From NCBI GenBank assembly GCA_018667995.1, contig JABIQT010000051.1, positions 1 to 50,983 on the forward strand: DNA of 50,983 bases, written 5' to 3'. A program made the translations under genes and the position numbers. A model generated the notes under the pieces. That model made no database searches and was not told the DNA's origin. It saw only the letters and a program-made list of their open reading frames with translations. Source of the DNA: Candidatus Latescibacterota bacterium (GTDB lineage: Bacteria > JAAXHH01 > JABIQT01). This document shows, in pieces, positions 12,271 to 37,938 of this stretch (its first letter is position 1; each line of letters starts with the position of its first letter).

Positions 12271-12398
12271 GCCTTGAGAGTACCTGAACCGCCGACTCCG
12301 TTATTCCCACATACGGGTGGTGTACTCTTTACGAACCATATCCCGATTTAAATAACTCCTTTAATATCTATAGCCGTTGTGTAGAGCGGAGGTTGCCT

Positions 12399-14936: not shown

Positions 14937-14952
14937 ACGAAATCAGACTAAG

Positions 14953-17346: not shown

Positions 17347-17377
17347 ATGTTATCCGAGTTTCATTCTGGATCGTATC

Positions 17378-19684: not shown

Positions 19685-19693
19685 TAGGCGACT

Positions 19694-22003: not shown

Positions 22004-22046
22004 GCACTACCTGAATGTCCGTCCACCAGCTACAGGTACGGCCAAT

Positions 22047-24287
22047 ATGCACAAAACATCCTGCTTCCTGTTTGCCCTTCTACTGCTCCAACCGCCGGCA
22101 TCCCCTGCACAGGAGAGCGCCAGCTCTCTTTACGACATGGGTACACGTCAATATGCCGAGGGAGACTATGAATCGGCCCTTAGTTCGTTCAAATCGGCCA
22201 TTCGCGTAGACAAGTCCCTGCAGGATGCCCACTATTGGCTTGGTATGAGCCTATATCAGATGAGTGACTACCCCGCGGCCAGGAAGGAATTCATAGATCT
22301 GGGGGGGCTTAGGTCAGCTGAGAGCCGTGTTTTAAGGGCTTTGGGAGCAGTCTACCTGAAAGAACGAAATCGGGCATTTGAGGCGCTTGATGTGCTGCAC
22401 CGGGCCACACAGATTAGCCCCCTTGATGCGGAAGCACACTATCTCACAGGTCTGGCGTATCTCACCCTCATGAGCCGCGGTCCCGTAGCAGAACATCCCT
22501 ACGTGGACAAAGCCAGGAACGCATTCAATCGGGCGCTCGAACTCTCTCCCCGGCACTTTGATGCCTCCTATCGACTCGGTAAACTATACGAGGGTGAATC
22601 GATTCAAAACCGCTACATCCCAAACAAGACAGATTCCTTTTACACTATGAGCTTGCCCTTCGAGGGTAAGGCGCTCAACGTGATGAGTGCCATGGCCGCC
22701 TTTGATAGACAGTTGAAAAGCAATCCCGCGCATGTGGAAGCGAGGCATGCCCTGGCCACACTGAACAGTCGATTGGGCAACCACGCTACTGCAATCAGGT
22801 CTCTAGAGGGGTTGGCCCGGGCTGAGCCGGATAACGTGGTGCGGCTCCTGGATCTTGGAATCGCCTATTGGCGCGCAAAGGAGTGGGTTCTGGCCGAAGA
22901 GATCTTTGAACGAGTGGTCCCCAAACTTCCTGAGAATGAGCAGGAAATCTATAGGGACTTTGGCACATTCGTGAACCGGAAGTCTGCTGCCGAATACGAC
23001 AAGGCCAATGAGAGTGATCAGGCCGTTCAATGGCGGGATTTCTTTGCGTTGAGGGACCCGGTACCGGTTACCGAGGTGAATGAGCGATTGATCGAACACT
23101 ACGGTCGTGTGGCGTACGCCCGCCAGTCCTTCACAAGCAAGGGCGTGTTTCCCTGGGATCGCCGTGGCGATATTGTAGTCAGATACGGCTTGCCTGACCA
23201 CGTGGAATTCGGTAGCGGAATCACCGAGAATATGGAGACGGGCTCCACGCCGCTCTCCATGCGAAACTGGGGTGAATCATGGGTATATGTCCACGTGCCA
23301 ATGACCTTGTATTTCGAGAATCGGCAATTTTCACGCCGCTACGACTTTCCGCCCATTTTTGCGGGCGACGGTATCAACTATGACCATCCCTATTTTGTGG
23401 CCAGACAGACCATCGAGAGGACGCCATCTCTGCACATACCCCGTGAACTTGGCGCGCCACTTGAAATCCACGTGGACCCTGTAGCGTTCAGGGATGCGAA
23501 CGGCGATGCAGTACTTGAGCTGGCCTATGGTGTTTCGCGGGAAGAAACAGGAATAACAGAGGCTGGAATGGTAGACCGAGCACTTGACCTCGGTGCGGTG
23601 CTTTATGGCCCCGAATGGGACCGCACCGTCGTAGATTCTACTTGGTCTCCTCTCTTCGTGGCCGGTAACGATAGAGGCACTATCTCAGCTATCGCCGTAC
23701 AGGAGCTTCGTGCCGATCCTGGTGCGTACTGGATGGCTGCGCAGGCACATGATAGACAATACGGGCTGTACGGCGTGTTGCGCGACTCGGTTGTAGTGCC
23801 TGATTTCTCCCGTGCCGGTGTCAAAATGAGTGGCATTCGTCTGGCTATTGAAATGGCTCGGGAGGTCGAGGATCGTGCCATTGATATGAAATTACCTGAC
23901 CGATTGGCCCCTAATCCTACCCGGTTATTTTACCGTGCAACTCCCTTGCATTTCTACTTTGAACTCTACGATCTATCCTTAGGCGAGGACAGCCTGGCGC
24001 GATTTCAGGTTCAAGTGAGTTTACACCCCAGTGAAGAATCCATGACAAGCCGCAATATAATCTGGCGGATGCTCTCCAGGGCCGAGACCATATTCAGACG
24101 TGCTCGCCAAAAACAGGTGGTAACATTCATGTTCGAGGAACGCAGTGAGTCACCCATGACCTCTTGGGTGTCAGCGATTGACACATCCGATCTGACCCTG
24201 GGCAACTACCGGCTCGAGGTCTTTGTGACAGATCTGACTAGTGGCGCGACCGTGTCACAGGGTCAGATGTTTCGGGTGGCGAAATGA
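22047..24287 (+). CDS. TPR-GWxTD domain exported protein, paralog 5 of 6 (most divergent)
   Basis: 746 residues, 43 bp after paralog 4. The signal peptide is CFLFALLLLQPPASPAQ. TPRs are recognisable (DAHYWLGMSLYQMSDYPAA) but the third quarter of the TPR region has an extra stretch with YIPNKTDSFYTMSLPFEG. The GWxTD-type block near residue 330 departs from its siblings: FFALRDPVP replaces FWAxRDPDP, and PWDRRGDIVVRYGLPDH lacks the acidic GEPDD. ESWVYVHVPMTLYFE and a beta-rich end with FYFELYDL and LGNYRLEVFVTDL follow. This copy has diverged most, so it may be specialised. Its stop codon overlaps the start of paralog 6 in an ATGA, a sign of translational coupling. Confidence 0.78.
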   Translation: MHKTSCFLFALLLLQPPASPAQESASSLYDMGTRQYAEGDYESALSSFKSAIRVDKSLQDAHYWLGMSLYQMSDYPAARKEFIDLGGLRSAESRVLRALGAVYLKERNRAFEALDVLHRATQISPLDAEAHYLTGLAYLTLMSRGPVAEHPYVDKARNAFNRALELSPRHFDASYRLGKLYEGESIQNRYIPNKTDSFYTMSLPFEGKALNVMSAMAAFDRQLKSNPAHVEARHALATLNSRLGNHATAIRSLEGLARAEPDNVVRLLDLGIAYWRAKEWVLAEEIFERVVPKLPENEQEIYRDFGTFVNRKSAAEYDKANESDQAVQWRDFFALRDPVPVTEVNERLIEHYGRVAYARQSFTSKGVFPWDRRGDIVVRYGLPDHVEFGSGITENMETGSTPLSMRNWGESWVYVHVPMTLYFENRQFSRRYDFPPIFAGDGINYDHPYFVARQTIERTPSLHIPRELGAPLEIHVDPVAFRDANGDAVLELAYGVSREETGITEAGMVDRALDLGAVLYGPEWDRTVVDSTWSPLFVAGNDRGTISAIAVQELRADPGAYWMAAQAHDRQYGLYGVLRDSVVVPDFSRAGVKMSGIRLAIEMAREVEDRAIDMKLPDRLAPNPTRLFYRATPLHFYFELYDLSLGEDSLARFQVQVSLHPSEESMTSRNIIWRMLSRAETIFRRARQKQVVTFMFEERSESPMTSWVSAIDTSDLTLGNYRLEVFVTDLTSGATVSQGQMFRVAK

Positions 24288-26665
24288 CCCGGGCTGCCCA
24301 CTTGCTCATAGACATATGCCTACCAGTTGTCGGTAGTGCCGTCCTACTATTCACGGGTACTATCGTAATGGCCCAGGAACCACTGAGTGCCAGCATTGAC
24401 AATTATTTAGAGGCTGGCCGGGCCATGTATCTCTCAGAACGTTATTCTGAAGCCGAGATTCTCTTTCGCCAGGCGGTGAGCGAGGACGATGATTCAGCCG
24501 TAGGCAGATACTGGCTCGGTATGTCGCTTTACAAGCAAGACATGGACGACCAGGCTCTCAAACAGTTCCAACGAGCCACACGCATCGAAAGCGACTGGGC
24601 GCAGGGGTACCTCGGTGTGGGCCTGGTCTACTTGCGCAAGCCAAACCGAAAAATGGATGCCCGGGAAATGCTGCGAAGTGCTGCCAAACGGGCTCCCGAC
24701 GATGCACAGATTCAGTACTACCTCGGGATGACATTTGTCAGCGCCAACGGTCAGGGGCGGATTATCGGCGCTGACATGGATGGTCGGGACTACTTTCAAA
24801 AAGCGGTAGCCCTGAATGCTCAACACCCTGACGCGTACTACCAGTTGGGACTGTCTTCGGAATACCCGCTTCGGGAGTACGACCGAGCCCTCTTCTTCTA
24901 CTTCAAGCAGCTGACTGTGGCGCCGGCGCATGGTGAAGCGCTGACACGGCTGGGACACGTGACCTATATTCTGGGACGTCACAGGGAGGGGCTGGAGATG
25001 ATAGATCAGCTCATCGCTCTCCACGGATCTGATGCTGCAGATCGCTTCCATACCGTCAGAGCACAGATGGCGGCATCACATCTTCATAGTCAACAAGATT
25101 ACGCGGGCGCAGATATCCAATATCGAAACTATATCGGCGCTATCGGTGCGGGGGAACGTGCGTACTACGCGGATATCCAATTTGCGTCTCCCCCGGAAGT
25201 ATATCAGAGAATTCTAAATGCGGAGAGGGAGGAACGGGAGATACTCAATCGTAATTACTGGGCCTCACGGGATCCGAATCCAGCAACGGTAGTCAATGAG
25301 CGTTTACTAGAGCATTATAGACGCGTCATGTTCTCTCGAATTCACTTTTCCGCAGGCAAAGCCCCCTGGGATCGGCGAGGGGAGATGTATATCCGGTATG
25401 GGGATGCTGATGATAGACAGCGATTTCTGGGTGGATCAAATGAAGCAGATGCATTTATGTCGGGTGGCGGCGTCAATCTCAATTCAGTTCGAGAGCTAGG
25501 AGCTGGACCGAATGTGCCAGTCTCCGAGCATGATTTTATCATGCCGACCGGAAAGGCAGACGTGGACGCTGTGCGTGACCTGAACCGCGAGTTCCGATAT
25601 CGGCTGCGGGCACGCGGCGCTCATGCCACGGAAAGCTGGGTATATGTACGGCATGGCCTGGAGTTCTTCTTCGTAGACCAGCGTGGAAACGGCGAGTTCG
25701 ACTATCCTGATATTATGATGGATCCCACGGCTCTTGTCAGTTTGACGGGTGGTGCCCGCCAGGAACGTTTCCATCCTGAAACGGTAGCGGAGCTACTTAT
25801 CGCGAAAACCCCTGAGGATTACCGCCATGATTTTGGAGGTGACTTGCTTCAGTTCGTATTCGACACCGTAACGTTCCGAGGAGTAGGTGGAAAGACTGAC
25901 GTGGAGTTGACCTACAGTATTCCAAGCTGGCAATTTGGTTCCGTACAGGATGGAATGGGTCTGCGGACGTGGCTTCAAAATAGCGTAACGCTACGTGACG
26001 ATGACCTGACTCCGATAATTGCTCACGCCGAGCGTTTCGGTCCCATTGAACGGCCTACGAGGCCACAGGTGCGGCGAAATAACAACGTGGCACTCCATAG
26101 TGTCGCGGTCTCCTTTGAAGCGCCACCTGGCATTTTTGAAACAGGTGTCGAGCTACAGGACGAGGCCACACGACTTGTGGGCGTGTTCAAGAAGAGCACC
26201 GAGGTGTCCGACTACAGCGGCGACAGCCTGTTAGTGAGCGATCTAAAGCTCTCAAGCTTTATTGAGAAAGACGATGGCGCAGGACAGTTTGTACGTGGTG
26301 GATTCCAAATTGCCCCGAATCCGGGCCACCTATTCCAGCGCAATCAGCCTGTATATGTTTACTATGAGATATACAACCTGACGGTTGACGAGGTCGGTGA
26401 TACCCGATTTGAGACTATTTACGAGATTACACCCAAGGGGCGTATTATGAGAGACCGAGAGCAGCCATCAGAAATTGAAGACGATCCTATTCTTCTCATG
26501 TTTGAAGACGGGGGATCAACGCCGGTAGAAAAGCGGTATGCCGCCCTCGACACGAGCGATCTCCCCGAGGGCGAGTATGCCATGACTATGACGATGAGGG
26601 ATCTCGCCACGGGTCAGACTGTCTCCAAAGCTACAAGCTTTGTCATAATTGGAAACAGGGAGTAA
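24284..26665 (+). CDS. TPR-GWxTD domain exported protein, paralog 6 of 6
   Basis: 793 residues, overlapping paralog 5 by 4 bp (ATGA). The signal peptide is LPVVGSAVLLFTGTIVMAQ. TPRs cover about residues 38-265. The GWxTD-type block begins near residue 323 (YWASRDPNP, NERLLEHYRRV, PWDRRGEMYIRYGDADD). A Gly-rich insertion (FMSGGGVNLNSVREL and after) separates it from ESWVYVRHGLEFFFVDQRG. The C-terminus has VYYEIYNLTVDEVGD, FEDGG and EGEYAMTMTMRDL. This is the last gene of the unit. It ends 20 bp before the stop of the oppositely oriented RiPP exporter gene, and I see no convincing terminator in that short gap. Confidence 0.8.
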   Translation: MTRAAHLLIDICLPVVGSAVLLFTGTIVMAQEPLSASIDNYLEAGRAMYLSERYSEAEILFRQAVSEDDDSAVGRYWLGMSLYKQDMDDQALKQFQRATRIESDWAQGYLGVGLVYLRKPNRKMDAREMLRSAAKRAPDDAQIQYYLGMTFVSANGQGRIIGADMDGRDYFQKAVALNAQHPDAYYQLGLSSEYPLREYDRALFFYFKQLTVAPAHGEALTRLGHVTYILGRHREGLEMIDQLIALHGSDAADRFHTVRAQMAASHLHSQQDYAGADIQYRNYIGAIGAGERAYYADIQFASPPEVYQRILNAEREEREILNRNYWASRDPNPATVVNERLLEHYRRVMFSRIHFSAGKAPWDRRGEMYIRYGDADDRQRFLGGSNEADAFMSGGGVNLNSVRELGAGPNVPVSEHDFIMPTGKADVDAVRDLNREFRYRLRARGAHATESWVYVRHGLEFFFVDQRGNGEFDYPDIMMDPTALVSLTGGARQERFHPETVAELLIAKTPEDYRHDFGGDLLQFVFDTVTFRGVGGKTDVELTYSIPSWQFGSVQDGMGLRTWLQNSVTLRDDDLTPIIAHAERFGPIERPTRPQVRRNNNVALHSVAVSFEAPPGIFETGVELQDEATRLVGVFKKSTEVSDYSGDSLLVSDLKLSSFIEKDDGAGQFVRGGFQIAPNPGHLFQRNQPVYVYYEIYNLTVDEVGDTRFETIYEITPKGRIMRDREQPSEIEDDPILLMFEDGGSTPVEKRYAALDTSDLPEGEYAMTMTMRDLATGQTVSKATSFVIIGNRE

Positions 26666-26685: not shown

Positions 26686-28500
26686 TCAACGATAGTAGTG
26701 AGCCTGAGTCTCAAACAGCTGTTTGTACAGCCCTCCCTGGGCCATAAGCTCCTCGTGCGATCCGGACTCGCAGATGCTTCCCTGATCCATAACGTAAACG
26801 CGATCCACCATACGGACCGTAGACAACCGATGACTGACCAGCACTGCCGTACGGCCTTTGGTCAATTCGTGGAATTTCTCAAACACGCGAAACTCGGCTC
26901 GTGGATCAAGCGCACTGGTAGGCTCATCCAACACGATGATCTGTGATTCACGCAGAAACGCCCTGGCTAACGCGATCTTCTGCCACTGCCCAATGCTGAG
27001 CTGCTCGCCTTCTTCGAAGAGATACCCGAGGACCGTGTCGTACCCGGACGGGAGCTGGGAGATTATCTCATCAGCGTCCGCCTGCCGGGAGGCCCGTTCG
27101 ATTCGATCCTGATCTGGTTCCTGAGCGACATTACCGAACCAGATATTTTCCTTTGCCGTCATGTCATATTGTGCGTAATCCTGAAAGACCACGCTCATTT
27201 CTTTCCGCCAGTCCACGGAGTTGATGGCCCTGAGGTCTACACCATCGATTGCCACCGATCCGTCCGTGGGATCGTAGAGTCGGCACAGCAACTTAACCAG
27301 GGTCGTCTTGCCTGAACCATTTTCGCCGACCAGTGCTACGTGCTCACCCGGTTTAATCACCATGGAAATATCGCTCAGGGCCTGGCGGGTGCTGCTCGGA
27401 TAGCTGAAGCCAACGTGGTCAAGGACAATACCATCCAGATACGGCCGGGGTACCGATTCTGGTCGTTCCGGTTCCATGACCTTCTTTTCTAGGTCCAGAA
27501 ACTGATAGAGGTTGGTCAGAAATAGGTTGTCTTCATACAAACCGGCGACACCGGATAGCATCTCACGAAGCGCGCCCTGTCCCTGGCGCATTGCCTGAAA
27601 GAGCATCACGAGATCCCCTACCGAAATGACGCCTTGAACGGTACGATACGCAATGAAGGCATAGGACCCAAAAACTGCTACCGTGGCGCTTCCTTGAGCC
27701 ACGAACTCAAAGAGCGATCGCCGGGCGTTTATAGTCAGCTTTTCGCGCCGCAGATTCCGACGAAGATCCCTAAAGCGTCCTATGAATACAGAGCCAAGAT
27801 CAAATAGGCGCACTTCCTTGGCAAATTCGGCGCCCGTGAGTAGGAAATCATAGTAATCGGCGCGGCGCTCCGTGGAGGTACGCTTGTTCTGCCACTCAAA
27901 CATGCGCCCAGCAAAAACCATCCGTACGATAATGCCTGGAACAACAGCCACAACGAGCACACCCATGATCGCCCAGTGAAACGTGAACAGCAGACCGGCC
28001 ATAGCGAACATCGTAATGCCGCTCTGGCCAATCGCCATCAGCCCCTCAACGATCTGATATGGTCTGGAAATGGCCTCCGCCTGGGCCCTTTGAAGGGTAT
28101 CGTGATACTCTGAATTTTCATAGTATTCAAGATCGGCCTCTACAGATTTCGCATGAATAATGCTCTGTACATGGTCTACTACTCGCTCGCTTTGTTCTTG
28201 CCGCACAACATCGGCCACAGAGCTCAATCCTGCACCAATCAGCGATACCAATCCTGCCAGGATAATATACCACAGAACCTGCCTATAGGCCACCTCGGTG
28301 TCTGCCTCCAGGCCGATAGAGACCGTATCTACTATGAGCTTCATAAGGTACAGTGACGCCAATGGAAGCACGCCCTGGAGAACGACCAGTACCGCACCCA
28401 CCATGGTCCAGGTTCGCCCACTATCCCATACGAGTCGGACGGCGCGCTCCACACGCACAGTATAAAACAGTTTTCCCCTCAGGGATTCGTGATCTTCCAT
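26686..28500 (-). CDS. RiPP-cluster ABC exporter D2 (fused permease-ATPase)
   Basis: 604 residues from the ATG at 28500. This start is supported by colinear alignment of its N-terminus (FYTVRVERAVRLVWDSG) with the paralog D1, and it lies 5 bp after the nucleotidyltransferase stop; an upstream ATG at 28566 would overlap that gene. The N-terminal half is a six-helix exporter domain (VLVVLQGVLPLASLYLMKLI). The ATPase half has Walker A GENGSGKTTLVKL, signature LSIGQWQKIALARAF, Walker B IIVLDEPTSALDP and switch HRLS. Such homodimeric exporters (LasD/McjD-like) pump mature lasso peptide out and confer self-immunity. It lacks the C39 peptidase domain of bacteriocin exporters, consistent with separate leader removal by B2. 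Its last codons (QAHYYR) nearly match those of D1. Confidence 0.85.
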   Translation of the reverse strand: MEDHESLRGKLFYTVRVERAVRLVWDSGRTWTMVGAVLVVLQGVLPLASLYLMKLIVDTVSIGLEADTEVAYRQVLWYIILAGLVSLIGAGLSSVADVVRQEQSERVVDHVQSIIHAKSVEADLEYYENSEYHDTLQRAQAEAISRPYQIVEGLMAIGQSGITMFAMAGLLFTFHWAIMGVLVVAVVPGIIVRMVFAGRMFEWQNKRTSTERRADYYDFLLTGAEFAKEVRLFDLGSVFIGRFRDLRRNLRREKLTINARRSLFEFVAQGSATVAVFGSYAFIAYRTVQGVISVGDLVMLFQAMRQGQGALREMLSGVAGLYEDNLFLTNLYQFLDLEKKVMEPERPESVPRPYLDGIVLDHVGFSYPSSTRQALSDISMVIKPGEHVALVGENGSGKTTLVKLLCRLYDPTDGSVAIDGVDLRAINSVDWRKEMSVVFQDYAQYDMTAKENIWFGNVAQEPDQDRIERASRQADADEIISQLPSGYDTVLGYLFEEGEQLSIGQWQKIALARAFLRESQIIVLDEPTSALDPRAEFRVFEKFHELTKGRTAVLVSHRLSTVRMVDRVYVMDQGSICESGSHEELMAQGGLYKQLFETQAHYYR

Positions 28501-28505
28501 AGGTT

Positions 28506-29600
28506 TCAGGTTGGGGTGCGGCGGGAGCCGAGGTCTGTTCCGAGATTGTGAATACCATCGTACCATCCGGCCTTCGCGAGCTTGCGGCTACGCCAGATAA
28601 ACAGCATCTTTTGAAGGATCTGGTCCCACCTATACACAGCGCCAGGTAGTAAGGCAGAGGCGCTTGTTGTCCGGCCCATAATCCGTCTCCCACTGTGCAT
28701 TTCTGCAAGATTTGAGAAGGACTGACGCCCCACCAGATATGCAATCGCCGCGGACCGCACGGAATTTACCCGCAGATCCGAAAGCAGCGACTCGGGAATC
28801 TGGCAGTCCATATACTTTCCGGCTACATAAAGTGCCGTATACACGATATTCTCGCACTTGCACGATCGTGCCAATGGAACGATTCGGGAGTAGTCCAGAT
28901 CCTGATCGTTCAAGTAGGTAACTGTTTCGGTCACATCACAGAGGTTCTTCAGTGAAAAGAATCTCTTCCGAAAACTGTTTATACATACCGACAGGAGCAT
29001 GTCTTCAGGCGAAGGCACAAACACCAGGGAATCCCCGTGCGCAAACTGCTGCGCCCGATCCCAGATCTGGTTGAAGTCGATGGGCAAGAGCCCGTTAAGA
29101 TTCAGGTCATGGTGCTCGAAGTAGTCATGTTCAATGAGTGGCCGGAACAGGTCGACGATTTCCTGGTCACTGGTATCTGTAAGATCCTGCTTCCGTACGT
29201 TGAGGATGATGTCTATATCTTCAGAGAGGGTATACCATGGTTCGTCATAAACGAGGAGGTCGAGCGCGGCGCCCTTAATCAGCATTACACCAATATCACG
29301 GGCATCGAAATATGCCAGGGCCTCGCTCAGAATCTCATCCCTGGCTTTTGTTATGTCCATGCTCTGCTGGCGGGACATCATCCAGCGTGCCAGCATTTCG
29401 TGCGGGAGAGTCAGTCCGTCACTCAGACAACTCAACAGATTGTGTGCGACCAGCGGTGCCACGCCATGCACAAATGCGGTCTCATAGACATAGTCCCATT
29501 GGATCCGATGATCCTTGCAGATTGACACGGCCCTGGCACGGCGGACATCCGTAAATCTCTGGCCTGTTAAGGTAAAGAGAAGCCGATCTTCTGGTAACAT
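28506..29600 (-). CDS. Uncharacterised nucleotidyltransferase-family protein (PF14907-like) of the RiPP cluster
   Basis: 364 residues. The motif LIKGAALDLLVYDEP (about 107-121) followed by SEDIDIIL (about 126-133) corresponds to the KG...(S/R)xDIDLL pattern of the NTP_transf_5 family, a member of the polymerase-beta-type nucleotidyltransferase superfamily with a DxD metal site. A further LPIDFN may supply the third acid. Relatives are found in several lasso-peptide clusters, including Bacillota clusters of the paeninodin type, but I know of no firmly assigned reaction; nucleotidyl or other group transfer onto the peptide is an inference. The gene sits between the two exporter genes, 37 bp after D1 and 5 bp before D2, so all three are likely co-transcribed. 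Confidence 0.75.
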   Translation of the reverse strand: MLPEDRLLFTLTGQRFTDVRRARAVSICKDHRIQWDYVYETAFVHGVAPLVAHNLLSCLSDGLTLPHEMLARWMMSRQQSMDITKARDEILSEALAYFDARDIGVMLIKGAALDLLVYDEPWYTLSEDIDIILNVRKQDLTDTSDQEIVDLFRPLIEHDYFEHHDLNLNGLLPIDFNQIWDRAQQFAHGDSLVFVPSPEDMLLSVCINSFRKRFFSLKNLCDVTETVTYLNDQDLDYSRIVPLARSCKCENIVYTALYVAGKYMDCQIPESLLSDLRVNSVRSAAIAYLVGRQSFSNLAEMHSGRRIMGRTTSASALLPGAVYRWDQILQKMLFIWRSRKLAKAGWYDGIHNLGTDLGSRRTPT

Positions 29601-29637
29601 GACCTAACTCCAGACGCACTGATTCCCGACTCCGTGT

Positions 29638-31449
29638 TCAACGATAGTATTGAGCTTGAGTCTCAAAGAGATGTGCGTATGTGCCGTTCCCTTCCATCAG
29701 CTCATCATGAGAACCACTCTCTACAACACGGCCATTCTCCATTACAAAAACCCGGTCCGCCATGCGTACAGTAGAGAGCCGATGGCTGATCAGAATAGCG
29801 GTCCGGCCCGATGTCAGCTGATGAAATTTCTCGAATACCTTATACTCAGCTTTAGGGTCCAACGCACTGGTCGGCTCATCAAGGACTATGATCTGTGCCT
29901 CGCGCATGAATGCTCTTGCCAGTGCGATTTTCTGCCACTCGCCGATACTGAGATCCTCACCCTCTTCAAACATCTTACCCAGATTTGTATCATATCCATC
30001 CGGCAGTCCAGCAATGATACCATCAGCGTCAGCCTGGCGTGCGGCCTCTTCTATTCGTGAGTGATCTTGCGGCGCGGACACATCACCAAACCAGATATTC
30101 TCCCTGACTGAAAGTGGGTAGCGGGCATAGTCCTGGAAGACGACACTGATATCCTTGCGCAAATCTTCAATAGAGAATGATCCCAGATCCAGGCCGTCCA
30201 CGGTGATCTTTCCAGCTGATGGATCGTAGAGCCTGCATATCAGCTTGATGAGGGTCGTTTTGCCGGATCCGTTTTCACCTACGAATGCCACGTGCTCCCC
30301 AGGGGCTATCTCTAGAGACACATCGTCCAGAGCCTTCCGTGTTCCGTTCGGATACGAAAAACTCACTGCATCCAATGCAATTCCGCTCTGCATGGGATGG
30401 GGTACCGCAATCGGTCTTGCTGGATCGGCTACTTTTCGGTCGAGATCTAGGAATTCATACAAATTTGACAGAAACAGGTTGTTTTCATAGAGACCCGCAA
30501 TTCCCATCAGCATGTCGCGGAGTGCACTCTGACCTTGCCGGAGGGCTTGGAAAAGCATGACCAGATCACCAATGGTCGCCGCCCCCTGAACAGTTCGGTA
30601 TGCTATGAACCCGTAAGAACCATAGATAGCGATGGTTGCGCTGAACTGGGTGACCAACTCGGCGAGAGTGCGGCGAGTTGCTATCGCCATTCGTTCCCGG
30701 CGGAGTTGGCGCCGCAACTCCCTGAACCGATCGATAAATAGATGCCCGAGTCCAAAGAGTCGGACTTCTTTTGCATAAAGGCTTCCGGTAAGCATCCAGT
30801 CGTAAAAAGTGGCCTGCCGCTCTTTGGACGTCCGGCGTCGCTTCCATTCATACATCTGATCCGCATACAGAATGCGTACAAAGATACCCGGCACCACCGC
30901 CAGGAATAGAACGACTGTGATAGCCCAGTGGAAAGTGAAGAGCAATCCAGCGATGACAACCATCGTAACAGATTGCTGAGCAATTTCCAGCAGTCCATTT
31001 ACGATCTGCAGAGGTCGGACCGGCGCCTCAGCCTGAGCCCGACGGAGGGCGTCGTAGTAGGCTGCATCCTCGTAGTATGCAAGATCAACTTCAATCGACT
31101 TCGCATGCAAAATGCTTTGGATATGATCCACTACACGTTGGCCCTGCTCATCACTTACGCGACTAGCACCCGCGTTGACGGCCGCGCTCAGAAGTGCTAC
31201 CCCTCCGGCCAACGCCACATACAGCATCACCTTACTGAGGGCATCGTTCGTATCCTGATCGACCATTCCAGCCGAAACTGCGTCAATTACCAGCTTGATC
31301 AAATAGAGGGAGGCAAGCGGCAGTACGCCCTGGATAAGGACAAGAATTCCGGATGCGACCGTCCATTTTGGACCACTGTCCCAGACCAGTTTTACTGCTC
31401 GCTCCACCCGCACGATATAACGTAATCTCTCCCGTAAGTCAATACCCAT
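29638..31449 (-). CDS. RiPP-cluster ABC exporter D1 (fused permease-ATPase)
   Basis: 603 residues with six predicted transmembrane helices followed by an ABC ATPase: Walker A GENGSGKTTLIKL, signature LSIGEWQKIALARAF, Walker B IIVLDEPTSALDP and switch HRLS. It is a full-length paralog of D2, colinear throughout and sharing segments such as GVLPLASLYLIKL and LVMLFQALRQGQ, so the two arose by duplication. Having two exporters could mean one per peptide type, or a heterodimer. There is no peptidase domain. It lies 182 bp downstream of precursor gene A1, from which it is separated by an intrinsic terminator, so its expression is probably lower than that of the precursor. Confidence 0.85.
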   Translation of the reverse strand: MGIDLRERLRYIVRVERAVKLVWDSGPKWTVASGILVLIQGVLPLASLYLIKLVIDAVSAGMVDQDTNDALSKVMLYVALAGGVALLSAAVNAGASRVSDEQGQRVVDHIQSILHAKSIEVDLAYYEDAAYYDALRRAQAEAPVRPLQIVNGLLEIAQQSVTMVVIAGLLFTFHWAITVVLFLAVVPGIFVRILYADQMYEWKRRRTSKERQATFYDWMLTGSLYAKEVRLFGLGHLFIDRFRELRRQLRRERMAIATRRTLAELVTQFSATIAIYGSYGFIAYRTVQGAATIGDLVMLFQALRQGQSALRDMLMGIAGLYENNLFLSNLYEFLDLDRKVADPARPIAVPHPMQSGIALDAVSFSYPNGTRKALDDVSLEIAPGEHVAFVGENGSGKTTLIKLICRLYDPSAGKITVDGLDLGSFSIEDLRKDISVVFQDYARYPLSVRENIWFGDVSAPQDHSRIEEAARQADADGIIAGLPDGYDTNLGKMFEEGEDLSIGEWQKIALARAFMREAQIIVLDEPTSALDPKAEYKVFEKFHQLTSGRTAILISHRLSTVRMADRVFVMENGRVVESGSHDELMEGNGTYAHLFETQAQYYR

Positions 31450-31480
31450 GTCTGCAGGCTTTCCCAGGCTATCTGCCTAT

Positions 31481-31524
31481 AAAAACGAAGTCGCACCACC
31501 ATTTTCGGCGATACGACTTCGTTT
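31481..31524 (-). terminator. Intrinsic terminator/attenuator after precursor gene A1
   Basis: An 11-bp perfect inverted repeat (31483-31493 with 31514-31524, core ACGAAGTCG/CGACTTCGT) encloses a 20-nt loop. Read on the minus strand the stem is followed by a T run (31485-31481). It lies about 110 bp after the A1 stop and 30 bp before the D1 start, so it would partly separate the abundant precursor message from the exporter genes. Confidence 0.7.
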
Positions 31525-31631
31525 GCTGTACGCGACACTCGTATTCGGGGCCTCCCGCTAGACGGTTGGCCGGTTTTCTGCATCGCAGACCCTTTCGGGC
31601 CCAAGCCGTTAAATGACTCGCATTTCTCCCT

Positions 31632-31826
31632 CTAGTTCCAACCGACGGTTGTATCTCCTACGCCATCCCCATCGGTATCTACGGGACCAATCACGCGTCC
31701 CATGTAATCTAGAGACTGAAGGGTTTTGACTCTTCTCTGAGGCGCATAACTGCTCTGAAGCGTTACATTTTCGATACGTCCGTACCGACGCAAACCCTTC
31801 ATTTCGTACACTTCATGTTCACTCAT
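31632..31826 (-). CDS. Lasso-type RiPP precursor A1 with calcium-loop-like C-terminus
   Basis: 64 residues from the ATG at 31826, chosen because AAAGGA lies 7-8 nt upstream; an in-frame ATG at 31859 lacks this. The leader has the lasso recognition pattern YxxPxLxxxGxxxxxT with exact spacing: Y7, L12, G16 and T22, with Lys in place of Pro at 10. Segments GRIENVTL and SSY are shared with A2 and A3. By analogy with known lasso precursors cleavage would follow residue 23, but the next nine residues contain no Asp or Glu. The C-terminus GPVDTDGDGVGDTTVGWN holds a DxDGDGxGD motif like calcium loops of thrombospondin type 3 repeats. G43 to D50 would be a possible eight-residue ring if cleavage occurs later. 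It lies between cyclase C1 and the exporter genes. Confidence 0.75.
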   Translation of the reverse strand: MSEHEVYEMKGLRRYGRIENVTLQSSYAPQRRVKTLQSLDYMGRVIGPVDTDGDGVGDTTVGWN

Positions 31827-31919
31827 GATGTTGTCCTTTCGTGATTCATCTACAGCCATGGTGCCGGCATTGGTGCCGACCGGAAAACCCCGAATACGAT
31901 TGCGCGCGACAACTCCTTT

Positions 31920-33908
31920 CTAAGCGGATAGGGAGAGCGGCTGCTGACCACTACCCGATGATTTGCTTTCAACTATTCGTGTATTTGATGTCGATGTGTC
32001 CGATATGAGGCGTCTAAGGCTGCCCCCATTTTCGACGGCTCGCAACCATCCTTCCAGGCTTAAGAAACCTGATATATATCCCGCAAGCTGTTCACTGTCT
32101 TCAACCGCTACCATGAACTTCTCAGGATTCACGTATCCGCGATCGAAAATGTGGACAGTACTCGAATCCTGTAACCACTTCCGGGCTGCAGCCGGGGGGA
32201 GACTATTCCTGAGTACCGGAGTGAACTCTACCCCCTGATAACCAACCCGCAGTTTCTCGGGAATGATTCCCGCCATGGCCTGCCTGTGATGCCGGCGAAC
32301 AGCCATCCGAATCCGAGGCTCCTCGGCATCCCACTTCATCTGGTGAGGCATCCCGAGGACCATCTCGATGAGCCTTCTGTCAAAGTAAGGATATCGCGGC
32401 TCTACCGGTTGGGCATACTGGTGTGTGTATCCAGTTTTGGGCGGAAATATACTCTCTATCGTACTCTGAACCACGGGACAGCGGAATCGATTCCTGTCTG
32501 CCCAGCCTACTCGAAGCTCCTCATCCTTTTCAACGATTTGCTGACGAACCGAATTAGTCATAAATTCCGGCACATCCCAGATCGTTCCAGATCGCCTCTC
32601 ACGGGCCTTAAGTACGGCGTTCATTATTGGAAAAGGTGTAACCATGGGAAAGATGCCATAGGCTAGAAATGCCCGCAATGCGTACCACCCATATCGACTG
32701 CGATCGATCTTAAACCGTTTCAGTATTTCGCCGAACTGCTTTCTTCGCAGAAGATCGTAGTATACGAAATAACCGCCGCTATTTAATTCGTTACCGTTCT
32801 TTCCGTTCAGCGATACTCTGCATCCCGATTCGGCTACCATGTTATACAATTTGTGATTGGCCAACGGTACCCAGAAATCGAACGGACCCATGATACTTTC
32901 CGGTTTCCAATCGGGATACATACATCTTGGGCCAAATAAAGTGTCGGCAATAAGGTAGTGAGGCTTCAAGTCCCCATGCTGGTTTAGCACTTCCTGGATG
33001 TATGGTCGCTCATCGGACTCGATGACACTGTCGAATGCTATCGAGAATGTATGGATAGGATTGCTTTGAGGACCACTCATTCGAGCGGCGAGACAGGCGA
33101 CGGCAGAGGAGTCCAAACCGCCGCTCAGTTCCATAGCAACAGGGCCGCGACTTCGAAGTCGGTGCCGCACGGCCTCATCGAGTCGATGTGCGTACTCCTC
33201 CAGCACTTCACCTGGGGACCGTTGATCTGGAGCTGATTCCTGCCAGGTCCAATATGGAGTGACATCAATCTTGCCGTTCTTAGCTACCAGCTTCGATCCT
33301 GCAGGAACGGCATGCACGTTCTTGAAGAATCCCTTATCCCAACCCGTAATGCTCTGGTGAATGGGGGTCAAGTACTCAATGAGGTGCTCTTCGTTAACTT
33401 CGAAGGGGATATTTAAGTCTTGGAAGATCTGCGTGCGATCTGATGCCAGGAAGAAGGTGCTCCCATCGTCATGATAATAGAGCTGCCGTGCGCCAGATAT
33501 GTCTCGTGCCGCAAACAGCGATCTGGTGTGCTCATTCCAGATGGCAAATGCGAAGTCTCCTATGAGACGGTCTGCACAGTCCTCACCCCAAGCCTGAAAG
33601 GCAGCAAGTACCAACGCAGTATCAGACTGTGAGACCGGGCGCACACCGGGCGGTAGTGCAGCTACCACCTCGCTGCGATTGTCCAGGCGACAACTGGCAG
33701 CAATGTGCAACGGTCCGGCTACGATCTTTACTCCGGGTTCGTCCTCAGGCAACGTGGATAGATCGGCCTGCGCCATACCAACAGCACCATCTACCCAGAC
33801 CCATGCGCCGTCCGGGCACCTGTGTTGCACACAACTGTTCGCGCCCTTAAGGATGCGCGCATCCACGGGCCGACCATCCCAGTTTATTATACAGGAAATG
33901 GCACTCAT
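31920..33908 (-). CDS. Lasso-type macrolactam synthetase C1 (asparagine-synthetase-like)
   Basis: 662 residues. The N-terminal half is a glutaminase-like domain (SCIINWDGRPVD, RDISGARQLYYH), but residue 2 is Ser, so the catalytic Cys2 needed to release ammonia from glutamine is missing. The C-terminal half is an ATP-pyrophosphatase domain with SGGLDSS at 262-268 and later YPYFDRRLIEMVL. This combination is typical of lasso cyclases (McjC/LasC), which adenylate an Asp or Glu side chain and close it onto the freed N-terminus. It follows the RRE gene B1 by 48 bp and precedes precursor A1. It is a colinear paralog of C2, without gaps over the first 270 residues. Confidence 0.87.
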   Translation of the reverse strand: MSAISCIINWDGRPVDARILKGANSCVQHRCPDGAWVWVDGAVGMAQADLSTLPEDEPGVKIVAGPLHIAASCRLDNRSEVVAALPPGVRPVSQSDTALVLAAFQAWGEDCADRLIGDFAFAIWNEHTRSLFAARDISGARQLYYHDDGSTFFLASDRTQIFQDLNIPFEVNEEHLIEYLTPIHQSITGWDKGFFKNVHAVPAGSKLVAKNGKIDVTPYWTWQESAPDQRSPGEVLEEYAHRLDEAVRHRLRSRGPVAMELSGGLDSSAVACLAARMSGPQSNPIHTFSIAFDSVIESDERPYIQEVLNQHGDLKPHYLIADTLFGPRCMYPDWKPESIMGPFDFWVPLANHKLYNMVAESGCRVSLNGKNGNELNSGGYFVYYDLLRRKQFGEILKRFKIDRSRYGWYALRAFLAYGIFPMVTPFPIMNAVLKARERRSGTIWDVPEFMTNSVRQQIVEKDEELRVGWADRNRFRCPVVQSTIESIFPPKTGYTHQYAQPVEPRYPYFDRRLIEMVLGMPHQMKWDAEEPRIRMAVRRHHRQAMAGIIPEKLRVGYQGVEFTPVLRNSLPPAAARKWLQDSSTVHIFDRGYVNPEKFMVAVEDSEQLAGYISGFLSLEGWLRAVENGGSLRRLISDTSTSNTRIVESKSSGSGQQPLSLSA

Positions 33909-33956
33909 TCTATGCCCCGAATTAGGCTATCGAGCCATTCACCCTTAAGAATCGTC

Positions 33957-34277
33957 TTATTCATGAACATCTATCAATCCTTCATCGGAGAGCTCTTGTA
34001 GAAAGGCAAGGACGTCTTCTTTGCATCGGGCTGGTTCAACTTTGTAGGTTTCCACCAATGAGTCTTTTATATCCTTCACAGAAATGGGAGCCTGGAGCAT
34101 GTCCCAGATACGTGCCTCCACGGCGGTTACACCGTAGTATTGCCCAGTTTTTACATTAAGAATAACGGTTTCACCATCTAAATCGTTTGACACCTGATCA
34201 GGCGCGGCCACGACAGCGATCTCCTGTAAAACGGGACACTCCAACTCTGAGAAAATCATACGGGACATTCCAAACAT
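33957..34277 (-). CDS. PqqD-like RiPP recognition element B1
   Basis: 106 residues. The pattern LDGETVILNVKTGQYYGVTAVEARIWDML, here summarised as a beta-strand pair with TGQYYG and a helix with ARIWDML, then an acidic helical C-terminus (DVLAFLQELSDEGLI), is the PqqD/RRE fold. Stand-alone RREs of lasso clusters (LasB1) bind the precursor leader and deliver it to the B2 peptidase. The only B1 gene in the cluster must therefore serve all three precursors. A second ATG at residue 4 is an alternative start. It has its own promoter with the shared inverted repeat (34336-34379). Confidence 0.88.
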   Translation of the reverse strand: MFGMSRMIFSELECPVLQEIAVVAAPDQVSNDLDGETVILNVKTGQYYGVTAVEARIWDMLQAPISVKDIKDSLVETYKVEPARCKEDVLAFLQELSDEGLIDVHE

Positions 34278-34632
34278 TGGTGAATGGACGTTCGATAACT
34301 TTACATGGGATATTACAAACTGGACTATACAGGGAAGAATACAGATTTACGAGAGTTCAAACAATCGGGAAAACCCCGAGAATCAAAAAGAATCTCCTTA
34401 GTTTTGCAGAAGATGCTCTCTCGAGTCATTACAGCGACCATCGTGGATCTCTAGCGGGGGACTAAGAGATACTTATCGAGGCCGCGGTCGAGCACAAGAC
34501 TCAATGCCTTTGACAATATGCTTGATTTACAATCCAATACACATCACCCGGGATACCCGCATGTTCACTGATCGACATTATCCGGAAACCCAGGTATTTC
34601 GACTGCTCAGGCGAATTTCTGGAAACTCGAGA
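34278..34632 (-). other. 355-bp gap between precursor A2 and B1
   Basis: No credible coding sequence is visible in this gap. It holds the promoter and inverted repeat upstream of B1 (34336-34379) and a weaker match to the repeat's GGGTTTCC core at 34575-34593. An AAGGAG stretch near 34400 is not followed by a usable start codon. No intrinsic terminator follows A2. Confidence 0.6.
34336..34379 (-). promoter_or_regulatory. Promoter with inverted-repeat operator candidate upstream of B1-C1-A1
   Basis: On the minus strand an inverted repeat (TCGGG/CCCGA arms, 5-nt centre, 34379-34365) abuts TTGTTT (34364-34359), which is followed after 17 nt by TATTCT (34341-34336). The leader to the B1 ATG would be about 52 nt. 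The same arrangement stands upstream of precursors A2 and A3. Confidence 0.55.
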
Positions 34633-34794
34633 CTACCTGGTTGTCCGTCTACGACGCTTATCCCATCCACGTACCGATCGTTTTCGGGTTGTTCTAGGTG
34701 GCGTAGTGGTCGTCCCAGGATCATACGAGGACGTCAGCGTCACATTTTCGAGACGACCGTAACGTATCAGCTTGGGTGGTTGATAAGTAGGCAT
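34633..34794 (-). CDS. Lasso-type RiPP precursor A2 with highly basic tail
   Basis: 53 residues, ATG at 34794 preceded by AGGA at 4-5 nt. The leader is a perfect YxxPxLxxxGxxxxxT match: Y4, P7, L9, G13 and T19, within YQPPKLIRYGRLENVTL. Expected cleavage after L20 would leave a 33-residue follower starting TSSYDPGTTTT. It has Asp at position 5 but no Asp or Glu at 7-9. The end reads RKRSVRGWDKRRRRTTR, with about ten basic residues in the last nineteen and a single acid, D45. The same GWDKRRRR block with identical distance from the leader Thr occurs in A3, so the reading frame is conserved and real. It lies between B2 and B1. The mature product is unknown. Confidence 0.8.
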   Translation of the reverse strand: MPTYQPPKLIRYGRLENVTLTSSYDPGTTTTPPRTTRKRSVRGWDKRRRRTTR

Positions 34795-34888
34795 GAAATC
34801 CTGTTCCTAATCAGATGGGGATTGGCTTGTCATCCTTCTATCAATGAACCGATGACTGCCTGACTTCTAATCTGGAGAATTGTCATCA

Positions 34889-34932
34889 ATAATACCATTC
34901 ACTGCCCGAAACCACAATAAGGGAAACCCTTA
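34889..34932 (-). promoter_or_regulatory. Promoter with inverted-repeat operator candidate upstream of precursor A2
   Basis: On the minus strand the inverted repeat TAAGGG-TTT-CCCTTA (34932-34918, six-base arms) directly abuts TTGTGG (34917-34912). TATTAT follows after 17 nt (34894-34889). The leader to the A2 ATG would be about 88 nt. This lies in the 196-bp gap between B2 and A2. Confidence 0.6.
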
Positions 34933-34990
34933 GTTTTCCGCCAAAGTTCCCTGAGTACTGCAAAAAAGCTCGATGTGGTGATTCAGGATA

Positions 34991-35434
34991 TTACATGCCG
35001 ATTTTGCCGAGAGATGGAAACTCTGTGAATCTTGCCAGATCTTCCACTGCACCCAGTACTATCTCACCTTGGTATTCTATCCAGGCATGGGCCTCCAAAC
35101 GACCACCTTCCTCCTTCGCCACGCCTATACGTAAATCGTTGCTTACGCCGCGTCTATCCAGAAGGACTTTTGTAACCAATGCTTGGACGAGGCATGTCGC
35201 GGAAGGAATGAATCGACTGGACGTCTCTACAGACCATGCTATTGTCTCTATTATCCTACGGTTCGTCTGATAGGGAACCGCGGAAGCGTCGGACCATTCA
35301 AATATCATTGTTCTTACTACTCTAAAGGGAAGAATCCAGAGTGCGATGCGAATGGCGGCACCGAGAATGAGAGCCACCATAAGCAAGTGTTGCTCTGAAT
35401 CTGGCAGTCGGTAGAATCTAAGAATCCTATTCAT
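34991..35434 (-). CDS. Lasso-type leader peptidase B2 (transglutaminase-like, McjB C-terminal family)
   Basis: 147 residues. The N-terminus has the family pattern R...L...E..LL..A followed by a hydrophobic helix (LMVALILGAAIRIALWILPF). The catalytic Cys is in SATCLVQALVTKVLLDRRGV (C81) and the His in EAHAWIEYQGEIVLG (H116), the typical Cys/His pair of the transglutaminase-like cysteine protease that cuts lasso leaders. I did not assign the third catalytic acid with certainty. It is a split, stand-alone B2, pairing with the separate RRE B1. It follows cyclase C2 by 24 bp. As the only peptidase, it must process all three precursors. Confidence 0.88.
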   Translation of the reverse strand: MNRILRFYRLPDSEQHLLMVALILGAAIRIALWILPFRVVRTMIFEWSDASAVPYQTNRRIIETIAWSVETSSRFIPSATCLVQALVTKVLLDRRGVSNDLRIGVAKEEGGRLEAHAWIEYQGEIVLGAVEDLARFTEFPSLGKIGM

Positions 35435-35458
35435 AGTTGCGACCGTCCTCTCGATGAA

Positions 35459-37399
35459 CTACGCGGCAGTCCTGTGTACCTGTGAATAAGCAAGGCGTGC
35501 CATTTTTCCGCCAGGCTCCATTGCCCGCAGCCAGCCTTCAACAGATATCATAGATGCAAGGTATCCGCCCGGGTTGTCGCATTCCGCCACCGCATCTAAG
35601 AATGCGGCAGGTTCGGCATATCCTCTTTCGAAAATGTGCACCATCGAATGGCTCAATAGCCATTTCCGGACTAATTCGGGCGTAAAGTTGTGCTGTAGCG
35701 ACGGACTGAATTCAACTCCCACATTTCTTACACGAACCGACTCAGGGATGATGCCCTTCATTGCTAATCGATGATGATGCCGGCTGGCCAGCAGGAGATC
35801 ACTTTCTTCGTGCTCCCACTTCATGTCTTGCGGCATGGAGAGTACAAATTCTATGAGACGCCTATCCATATATGGATGAACAGTCTGGATTGGTTGCGGA
35901 TATTGGATACTTAGCGCAATGCTTGGCGGCTGTAAGTCCTCCAGGGTCTCGCGGGCCGTTGGACACTTGACCTGGGTTCGGCGGGCCCGTTCAATTCGGA
36001 GCGACTCGTCCATGGCTCTTACCTTCGCCGCCAGGGACGATGGAATGTATTCCGGTAATTCCCACCCTTCTCCGGGGCCCATTCGCCGAGTCCTTGCTTC
36101 CAGTATTCTCCTGAGAATAGGTAGGGGAGTCAACAGGGGCAGTACCCCATCTGTAATGAACATTCGCGCTGTATACCGTCGATATCGAGCCCAGTCCAAT
36201 CGCAGCCTCCGAGCAGTCTCAGCTATTCGCCTGCGGCGGATTAGATCATAGTAGACCCTGTCGTCACCGTCATTCAAGACGTCACCAGATTCACCAGTGA
36301 CGACGATCCTGCATCCTCTTTCGACTGCCATTTGATAGAGACCGAAATTGGCGGACGGCATCAGAATTTCGCACGGTCCCATGATGCTCCTGGGTTCCCA
36401 ATCATCCTTGAGACACTGTGGACCATACATTTCATCAGCAACCTGATAGGCACGGTGTAGATGGGGATACATAGCCAGAACGGCCTCGATACCGGGCCGC
36501 TCGTCTACCTCAGTGGCCACATCAAATACATCAGACAGAGTATGTATCTCGGACATTGAGTTATCCCACATCTGTGCCGAGAGACATGCAAGCGCTGAGG
36601 AGTCTAGTCCCCCACTCAACTCTATTCCGATTGCCGCTCTACTGCGGGACCTGCAGCTAATGGCCTCCTTAAGTTGGACGAGATAGCGCTCTGTGACTTC
36701 TTGCCTGTTGATCCTCTCCGGAGACTGCTCCATCCATTGCCAGTAGGACCGCACGTCGATCTTACCGTCCTTCGCCCGGAGGTAGGACCCAGCAGGAACT
36801 GAGTGGAACGCCTTGAACAGCCCTTGATCCCAGCCGGTGGACATCTGATAGGTTGGTGTCAGGTATTCAATCACCTGTTCATCATCAATCTCTACAGGTA
36901 GCGATGAATCCTGGACAATTTGAGTTCGGTCGGAGGCCAAGAATAGACGGGCGGCATCACTGTAATAGAACAAGGTGCGCACACCCGATATATCCCGGGC
37001 GGCATAAACCGATTTGTCCGTTTCGTTCCATATTATAAATGCAAAATCCCCTATCAAACGTTCTGAGCACTTATCTCCCCATGCCTGATAGGCGGATAGG
37101 ATGAAGGCCGTATCCGTACTGTTCACTGGCCTGCAGTCGACCGGCAAAGTCGCCCGCAGTTCTTCGCGATTATCAATTCGGCACGATGCCGCAATTCGCA
37201 GCGGTCCGCATTGGACCTGTACACCGGGTTCATCTTCGGGAAGCACTGCCAGATCAGCCTGGGCCATACCAACGGCACCCTCAGTCCAGACCCAGCTACC
37301 ATCGGGGCAGCGGTGTCTGACGCAGGCGTTGGCTCGATCCAATACGGTTCGATCAACGGGTCGATGATTCCAGTTTACAATAGCGGATATAGCACTCAT
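35459..37399 (-). CDS. Lasso-type macrolactam synthetase C2 (asparagine-synthetase-like)
   Basis: 646 residues, a paralog of C1. Residue 2 is again Ser instead of the catalytic Cys, so it cannot be an ordinary glutamine-dependent asparagine synthetase. SGGLDSS lies at 262-268, exactly as in C1, and HPYMDRRLIEFVL near the C-terminus matches the C1 motif. The two proteins are colinear and share long segments such as GAVGMAQADL and RLIGDFAF, but they differ more in the synthetase half, where substrate is bound, which would fit different precursor specificity. It lies 165 bp after precursor A3 and is followed at once by B2, so A3 may be its partner substrate. Confidence 0.87.
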   Translation of the reverse strand: MSAISAIVNWNHRPVDRTVLDRANACVRHRCPDGSWVWTEGAVGMAQADLAVLPEDEPGVQVQCGPLRIAASCRIDNREELRATLPVDCRPVNSTDTAFILSAYQAWGDKCSERLIGDFAFIIWNETDKSVYAARDISGVRTLFYYSDAARLFLASDRTQIVQDSSLPVEIDDEQVIEYLTPTYQMSTGWDQGLFKAFHSVPAGSYLRAKDGKIDVRSYWQWMEQSPERINRQEVTERYLVQLKEAISCRSRSRAAIGIELSGGLDSSALACLSAQMWDNSMSEIHTLSDVFDVATEVDERPGIEAVLAMYPHLHRAYQVADEMYGPQCLKDDWEPRSIMGPCEILMPSANFGLYQMAVERGCRIVVTGESGDVLNDGDDRVYYDLIRRRRIAETARRLRLDWARYRRYTARMFITDGVLPLLTPLPILRRILEARTRRMGPGEGWELPEYIPSSLAAKVRAMDESLRIERARRTQVKCPTARETLEDLQPPSIALSIQYPQPIQTVHPYMDRRLIEFVLSMPQDMKWEHEESDLLLASRHHHRLAMKGIIPESVRVRNVGVEFSPSLQHNFTPELVRKWLLSHSMVHIFERGYAEPAAFLDAVAECDNPGGYLASMISVEGWLRAMEPGGKMARLAYSQVHRTAA

Positions 37400-37564
37400 G
37401 TCAGACCTGATGCTCCTGGGACCCTAACACACGAACTGGCTAACCTATGAATGATGACATTCAGATTCTATTCATTTGACGAATGCAGGCGGAGGCATTT
37501 CGACCTCGACCCCAATAATGCGGTAGATGCATCAATGAATTCTTTGGTGCCTGAGTACAACCGG

Positions 37565-37723
37565 CTACCAGCGCCTGGCTCTTCTACGACGCTTGTCCCA
37601 CCCACGCGGATACCGCTTACGGCTTCTAATGGGCTCAGGGGTCGGACCTATCGTGCTGTACGAGGACGTGAGCGTTACGTTTGCAATGCGACCGTAACGG
37701 TATAGCCTGGGCGCTTCATACAT
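37565..37723 (-). CDS. Lasso-type RiPP precursor A3 with highly basic tail
   Basis: 52 residues, ATG at 37723 with a strong AGGAGG about 9 nt upstream. The leader begins at once: Y2, P5, L7, G11 and T17 give a perfect YxxPxLxxxGxxxxxT. Expected cleavage after L18 would leave a 34-residue follower starting TSSYSTIGPTPEP. Its acids are at positions 12 (E30) and 25 (D43), not at 7-9. The end reads RKRYPRGWDKRRRRARRW, with about eleven basic residues. Distance from leader Thr to GWD is 24 residues, identical to A2, while the spacer between them has diverged. This is the first gene of the cluster, and its promoter (37773-37814) probably drives C2 and B2 as well. Confidence 0.8.
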   Translation of the reverse strand: MYEAPRLYRYGRIANVTLTSSYSTIGPTPEPIRSRKRYPRGWDKRRRRARRW

Positions 37724-37772
37724 GGCGGTGTCCCTCCTACTGCATAACGGGGAAAGCGACTTTCTGTATCGA

Positions 37773-37814
37773 AAGATACCTGAATCAACCCCACAAACAA
37801 TAAGGGGAACCCCT
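37773..37814 (-). promoter_or_regulatory. Promoter with inverted-repeat operator candidate at the head of the RiPP cluster
   Basis: On the minus strand the inverted repeat AGGGG-TT-CCCCT (37814-37803) lies 2 nt upstream of TTGTTT (37800-37795). TATCTT follows after 16 nt (37778-37773). The leader to the A3 ATG would be about 43 nt. The 215-bp gap between the sulfatase and A3 holds no other feature I can support. Confidence 0.55.
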
Positions 37815-37938
37815 AAATGCTCAATATATTGGCTGAGTTTACCTCTGAATAGAACTCAGAGAAGACGCCTCGATTCTGCAGTCACTGTCAGGACGGTATC
37901 GTCTAGTGTTTCCCAGGACTGAATACCTCCTACCGGTG

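Follow-up and report, generated by a model that had tools for sequence, protein, structure and literature searches.

Can a locus that encodes lasso-type enzymes be taken to produce a lasso peptide when its precursors do not offer the residue that closes the ring? The question is raised by a cluster of ten genes on contig JABIQT010000051.1 of a Candidatus Latescibacterota bacterium (GenBank assembly GCA_018667995.1). The whole contig (C855; 50,983 nucleotides) was analysed and is referred to here as the window; it belongs to a 6.06 Mb genome of 1165 contigs, 85% complete, from a phylum represented by 16 genomes. All ten are intact minus-strand genes, are arranged as A3-C2-B2-A2-B1-C1-A1-D1-NT-D2 and occupy the positions assigned to them by a first-pass annotation made from the sequence alone. 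That annotation had recognized a lasso-type cluster of the ribosomally synthesized and post-translationally modified peptide (RiPP) kind, with a single B1/B2 pair but two C and two D genes, and both Pfam and NCBIfam profiles bear this out. It had overlooked the missing acid in the precursors, and none of A1, A2 and A3 is predicted to give a canonical lasso ring. Our preferred reading, to which we assign a probability of roughly 0.55, is that a lasso-type RiPP cluster specific to this lineage was expanded piecemeal, and that A1-A3 give a product other than the canonical lasso ring of 7-9 residues. That the enzymes themselves are lasso-type is well supported.

Precursor peptides

The three precursor genes are as follows, with the leader and the core separated at the predicted cut.

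37565..37723, minus strand: A3, precursor of 52 amino acids; leader MYEAPRLYRYGRIANVTL, core TSSYSTIGPTPEPIRSRKRYPRGWDKRRRRARRW; leader motif YxxPxLxxxGxxxxxT; GGAGG upstream; core acids E12 and D25 only
34633..34794, minus strand: A2, precursor of 53 amino acids; leader MPTYQPPKLIRYGRLENVTL, core TSSYDPGTTTTPPRTTRKRSVRGWDKRRRRTTR; lasso_leader_L3 over cut-off; core acids D5 and D25 only
31632..31826, minus strand: A1, precursor of 64 amino acids; leader MSEHEVYEMKGLRRYGRIENVTL, core QSSYAPQRRVKTLQSLDYMGRVIGPVDTDGDGVGDTTVGWN; ATG preceded by AAAGGA; leader without the usual Pro; core acids D17 (the first), D27, D29, D31 and D35

A ribosome-binding-site-like AGGA or GGAGG stands directly 5' of all three genes, and A1 has a second in-frame ATG at 31859. 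The leaders are shared: A2 and A3 contain the full motif YxxPxLxxxGxxxxxT with Thr at position -2, and A1 has the same motif except for the Pro. The lasso_leader_L3 profile gave A2 19.7 bits against a cut-off of 19, while A3 reached 16 bits, which is below the cut-off although the motif fits. Counting the residue after Thr-Leu as core position 1, the cores are 33-41 residues long and all begin x-S-S-Y, with Gln first in A1 (Q-S-S-Y-x-P) and Thr first in A2 and A3 (T-S-S-Y, followed by a basic tail). At the DNA level the combined leader-SSY pattern occurs three times in the window versus 0.00 times in shuffled sequence (never in 100 shuffles).

The lasso ring consists of 7-9 residues and is formed by joining residue 1 to an Asp or Glu at position 7-9 (PMC8498205); the ring-forming acid is the one position reported to be intolerant of substitution (PMC13352647). 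Neither Asp nor Glu occupies any of core positions 7-9 in A1, A2 or A3. Such an acid is present in 12 of 14 comparison precursors that adjoin lasso genes, namely two from elsewhere in this genome (D9 on contig C1103, D8 in the precursor A4 described below), two from the order-mate genome G006 (E8 in both), two each from genomes G113 (D9 and D8) and G165 (E7/D9 and E8), and those of Paracoccus (D9), Sulfitobacter (D9), Antarctobacter (E9) and Priestia (D9). The remaining two are from Halopiger (D10; D9 with the cut moved by one) and from genome G091. A search for more comparison precursors in the phyla to which G091 and G113 belong turned up almost nothing. Core starts with Gln or Thr have precedents in A4 (Q1) and in Sulfitobacter (T1), and therefore the missing acid is the telling oddity of A1-A3. 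The G091 precursor (locus L061, contig C17), in which YEKPQVADFGLIQDHTF precedes the cut and TRCGGSGPPPKDWDCSCPRD follows it, possibly represents another non-canonical group; its neighbours are nucleotidyltransferase, ABC protein, AsnB-like, HPr-kinase-like and Transglut_core3 genes.

Comparison of A2 with A3 indicates which parts of the precursors are maintained. The basic C-terminal block RKRxxRGWDKRRRRxxR is identical at 13 of 17 positions (pS 0.85 and pN 0.17 for synonymous and nonsynonymous change), and the pN/pS ratio is 0.20 in this block and 0.32 in the leader with TSSY. The variable middle, core positions 5-16, retains only 2 of 12 identities. Purifying selection has thus maintained the basic block as well as the leader with TSSY, which is the opposite of what a conserved ring followed by a free tail would show. 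These substitutions also bear on the explanation that the cluster is decaying, in which case the ring-forming acids of A1-A3 have been lost and no product is made. Such decay would account for the absence of the acid from three of three precursors, but it is very unlikely given that A2-A3 substitutions are strongly synonymous in exactly these two regions, that all ten genes are intact with ribosome-binding sites, and that the ATP sites of the exporters are intact as well.

The conserved block contains D25, whose position is shared by A2 and A3, and a canonical lasso could instead arise if the core began further downstream; a 7-9-residue ring within RKRxxRGWD would then be closed on D25 and the KRRRRxxR tail threaded through it. 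In favour of this explanation, the shared D25 lies in the one stretch after TSSY that is strongly conserved. We nevertheless consider it unlikely, as it places the leader cut 16 residues past the Thr-2 site at which lasso B2 proteins act, finds no counterpart in A1 (where N comes after the GW) and leaves the SSY motif unexplained.

Scans for relatives with the leader-SSY motif returned no accepted relative in GTDB r220 and none in IMG/VR, these being short exact-pattern scans that can miss relatives. The sole GTDB r220 match, in a Sphingobacteriales metagenome-assembled genome, has no lasso genes nearby and was judged to be a chance match.

Maturation enzymes and exporters

The remaining genes of the cluster belong to the Pfam families Asn_synthase with GATase, PqqD, Transglut_core3, NTP_transf_5 and ABC_tran.

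35459..37399, minus strand: C2, asparagine-synthetase-like lasso cyclase homologue, 646 amino acids; by Pfam, lass_lactam_cya (295 bits) and tree
34991..35434, minus strand: B2, transglutaminase-like leader peptidase, 147 amino acids; Cys81/His116
33957..34277, minus strand: B1, PqqD-fold RiPP recognition element (RRE), 106 amino acids
31920..33908, minus strand: C1, asparagine-synthetase-like lasso cyclase homologue, 662 amino acids; by Pfam, lass_lactam_cya (329 bits) and tree
29638..31449, minus strand: D1, ABC exporter, 603 amino acids; Walker A, Walker B and H-loop intact
28506..29600, minus strand: NT, NTP_transf_5 (PF14907) nucleotidyltransferase and possible tailoring enzyme, 364 amino acids; by Pfam
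26686..28566, minus strand: D2, ABC exporter, 626 amino acids; start overlaps NT by 61 bases

B1 and B2 are members of the lasso families. B1 scored 85.4 bits against a cut-off of 80 for lasso_PqqD_Bac, in agreement with the PqqD fold attributed to it earlier, and B2 scored 95.6 bits against a cut-off of 33 for lasso_biosyn_B2. The transglutaminase-like Cys81 and His116 claimed for B2 are both present; the third residue of the catalytic triad varies among the B2 proteins compared. The nearest B2 proteins are 29-42% identical over part of the length. Nucleotidyltransferases of the PF14907 type are found alongside lasso clusters (PMC8498205).

The best NCBIfam family of C1 and C2 is lass_lactam_cya, with scores under its strict cut-off. 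Residue 2 is Ser in C1, in C2 and in the cyclase of contig C127, a second locus of the family in this genome, so that the nucleophile Cys2 of AsnB is missing from both cluster cyclases as had been noticed before; the lasso cyclases compared likewise have no Cys2. A grouping of C1 and C2 with true asparagine synthetases would have spoken against the first-pass annotation. A maximum-likelihood tree places them outside, in one 100/100 clade with the C127 cyclase (internal order unresolved) that is separate both from the asparagine synthetases of their own and related genomes and from other lasso cyclases. An R-x-H-H-R sequence within an insertion of roughly 6 residues is peculiar to these three among the cyclases compared. 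The nearest named plasmid-borne cyclases are 25-29% identical, and short exact-pattern scans, which can miss relatives, found no cyclase relatives in GTDB r220 or IMG/VR. An AlphaFold model of C1, built on an alignment of C1 and C2 only, had a predicted local distance difference test score (pLDDT) of 31, too low for the model to be of use.

Degeneration of the cyclase active site, with altered chemistry, was considered and rejected. The Mg-binding Asp of the AsnB motif GxGGD is Asn in C1 (GKNGN) and in the C127 cyclase and is kept in C2 (GESGD). This Asn carries no weight because the Priestia comparator, an annotated cyclase adjoining a paeninodin-family precursor, also has Asn there (GDRGN), together with Arg at the catalytic-Lys position.

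Both exporters are MsbA-like ABC proteins. They are 64% identical and mutual nearest relatives, other exporters in the genome being at most 47% identical to D1. We also considered a D1+D2 heterodimer with one degenerate ATP site; the Walker A, DEPTS and SHR motifs are intact in both proteins, which leaves no dead site, and the two may still form a heterodimer.

Related loci and duplication history

The second locus of the same family (L043, contig C127, positions 1-2571) has the order B1-C-A4 and ends at the contig end, with no B2 on the available sequence. In A4 YETPELRRYGRIAHKTL precedes the cut and QSSYGPTDPPDPSLKVV follows it, the core has D8, and its start is Q-S-S-Y-x-P as in A1. This precursor opens the alternative that the enzymes of the window mainly mature precursors encoded elsewhere, such as A4, and that A1-A3 are minor or regulatory peptides. 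A4 has the canonical acid, and its locus has no B2 of its own on the sequence available; C127 stops at the contig end, however, so that a B2 may lie beyond, and A1-A3 lie inside the cluster, each directly adjoining machinery genes. We give this alternative very little credence.

Two further contigs of the genome carry related genes. C1103 (L044) encodes B1, B2, an HPr-kinase-like protein, a partial cyclase, a partial nucleotidyltransferase and a precursor, RRLGRVEDVTL before the cut and NTQQPTGPDAQIYADDPYGPV after it (N1..D9), and appears to be an ordinary, separate lasso locus; its predicted core starts with Asn as in metanodin. C1043 encodes an HPr-kinase-like protein, a PqqD protein and a nucleotidyltransferase. 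In the order-mate G006 (L047, contig C83, 3505-11202) the cluster reads C-B2-A-B2-A-B1-D-D, a different partial duplication, and its exporters are 30-34% identical to D1 and D2. The A-B2 pair of that cluster seems to have been duplicated recently, its two B2 copies being identical across their aligned catalytic parts; the cores are canonical (G1..E8).

The duplicated genes of the window had been explained by the merger or duplication of two complete lasso clusters that kept one B1/B2 pair, with one cyclase and one exporter assigned to each precursor type and ordinary lassos as the products. The arrangement is suggestive, in that A3-C2-B2-A2 adjoins B1-C1-A1-D1-NT-D2 and the B1-C-A unit is repeated on C127. 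The merger nevertheless did not hold up and is, in our judgement, quite unlikely. The C1, C2 and C127 cyclases are about equidistant at 49-52% identity (C127 to C1 or C2 49-51%, C1 to C2 52%), D1 and D2 are each other's nearest relatives, G006 is doubled elsewhere, and no precursor has an acid at 7-9. As D1 and D2 (64%) are closer to each other than C1 and C2 (52%), there is no single duplication date unless rates differ. Because the three cyclases are equidistant, the exporters are 64% identical and G006 is duplicated differently, a lineage-specific and piecemeal duplication looks to be the better explanation of these sequences. The accompanying proposal, by which A1 and A2/A3 represent distinct types of substrate, is weakly favoured: C127 repeats B1-C-A with an A1-like precursor, and A2 and A3 flank C2.

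Proposed pathway

In the pathway that we propose, the single RRE protein B1 would bind the leader common to A1, A2 and A3, and B2 would cut after Thr-Leu, freeing cores that begin x-S-S-Y. The ATP-dependent C1 and C2 would then each activate a carboxylate in their own core and close an amide. Since A1 and A4 go with the B1-C-A order and A2/A3 with C2, a pairing of C1 with A1 and of C2 with A2/A3 is suggested. D1 and D2 would presumably export the products, and NT may decorate them. It is possible, though we hold it only tentatively and on balance doubt it, that the lasso machinery is re-used here with duplicated synthetases to make a different amide linkage (for example on D25, which is conserved in the basic block, or on a C-terminus) in longer cationic x-S-S-Y peptides, which would be a RiPP class derived from lasso peptides and so far seen only in this lineage.

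Several observations weigh against a product other than a canonical ring. C1 and C2 score under the strict lass_lactam_cya cut-off of 525 bits; comparator cyclases beside lasso B2 genes fall under it too. The Halopiger and G091 precursors stand beside lasso machinery and also lack an acid at 7-9, and it is not unusual for arbitrary sequence to lack an acid at three positions by chance. Core position 1 follows from the Thr-2 rule, and a shifted cut could restore a 7-9-residue ring in A2 and A3 (R17-R19 to D25). Finally, the D8 of A4, in the same genome, means that this cyclase clade may still close canonical rings.

Dyad elements and neighbouring genes

Three dyad elements lie within the cluster.

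37801..37815, minus strand: TAGGGGTTCCCCTTA-TTGTTTG, upstream of A3
34918..34932, minus strand: TAAGGGTTTCCCTTA-TTGTGG, upstream of A2
34365..34379, minus strand: TCGGGGTTTTCCCGA-TTGTTTG, upstream of B1

Their consensus is approximately AAAACTAAGGG-ATT-CCCTGATTGTTT, in which the stem letters vary and complementarity is kept. The pattern AAAACTAAGGN{2,32}CCCN{1,2}ATTG has only 5 matches in the 6 Mb genome and 0 in a reversed control. Two sites are in the cluster, one is 5' of the B1 gene of C127 (C127:2654-2698), and two in tandem (C167:2336-2512) adjoin a PilM/prepilin-like operon; the RiPP genes and this type IV pilus-like operon may have a common regulator.

Elsewhere in the window, six successive plus-strand genes (12393-26665) encode similar TPR proteins of 750-850 amino acids. 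They have in common the stretch VNERLxEHYRRVxxxRxxF...PWDRRGxIYIRYGEPDD, and a GWxTD domain was recognised in two of them.

Comparison with known systems

C1 and C2 have two domains in common, by profile, with AsnB (PDB 1ct9) and beta-lactam synthetase (1jgt), and the ATP motif SGGLDSS is kept. Unlike AsnB they have no Cys2, and their clade is distinct from the AsnB proteins of the genome itself. Metanodin, an Asn1 lasso peptide whose predicted ring is backed by mass spectrometric data (PMC12670498), is a precedent for cores whose first residue is not Gly and matches the C1103 precursor of the same genome; unlike metanodin, A1-A3 offer no acid for a predicted ring. The titles and abstracts listed by literature searches, in which subscription papers were mostly outside reach, describe no lasso cluster with two cyclases or acid-less cores. 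Lasso-type clusters also occur amid glycosyltransferase and polysaccharide genes on Paracoccus and Antarctobacter plasmids (L120, L124), with a nucleotidyltransferase gene nearby in both.

Genome mining calls lasso clusters from B1, B2 and C alone, and the present locus passes on its enzymes and fails on its substrates. It thus offers a natural case in which to ask how far AsnB-like RiPP synthetases can go beyond the ring of 7-9 residues. With two paralogous cyclases on one RRE and one protease, and a third beside a D8 precursor, the substrate choice of the cyclases is directly testable; should A1-A3 yield ordinary lassos after all, the rules of core prediction would need revision.

The closest known arrangement is that of the non-proteobacterial lasso clusters with split B1 and B2 (paeninodin/pseudomycoidin type), which consist of A, B1, B2, C and D with a kinase or nucleotidyltransferase. 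The PqqD RRE, the Transglut_core3 B2, the AsnB-like C, the MsbA-like D, PF14907 and the leader YxxPxL...G.....T are common to both. The present cluster differs in having two C and two D genes per B1/B2 pair, no HPr kinase, no acid at 7-9 and cores of 33-41 residues. The order-mate G006, from the same small phylum, likewise has partly duplicated lasso machinery including two exporters, but there B2 and A are doubled rather than C, and the G1..E8 cores are canonical.

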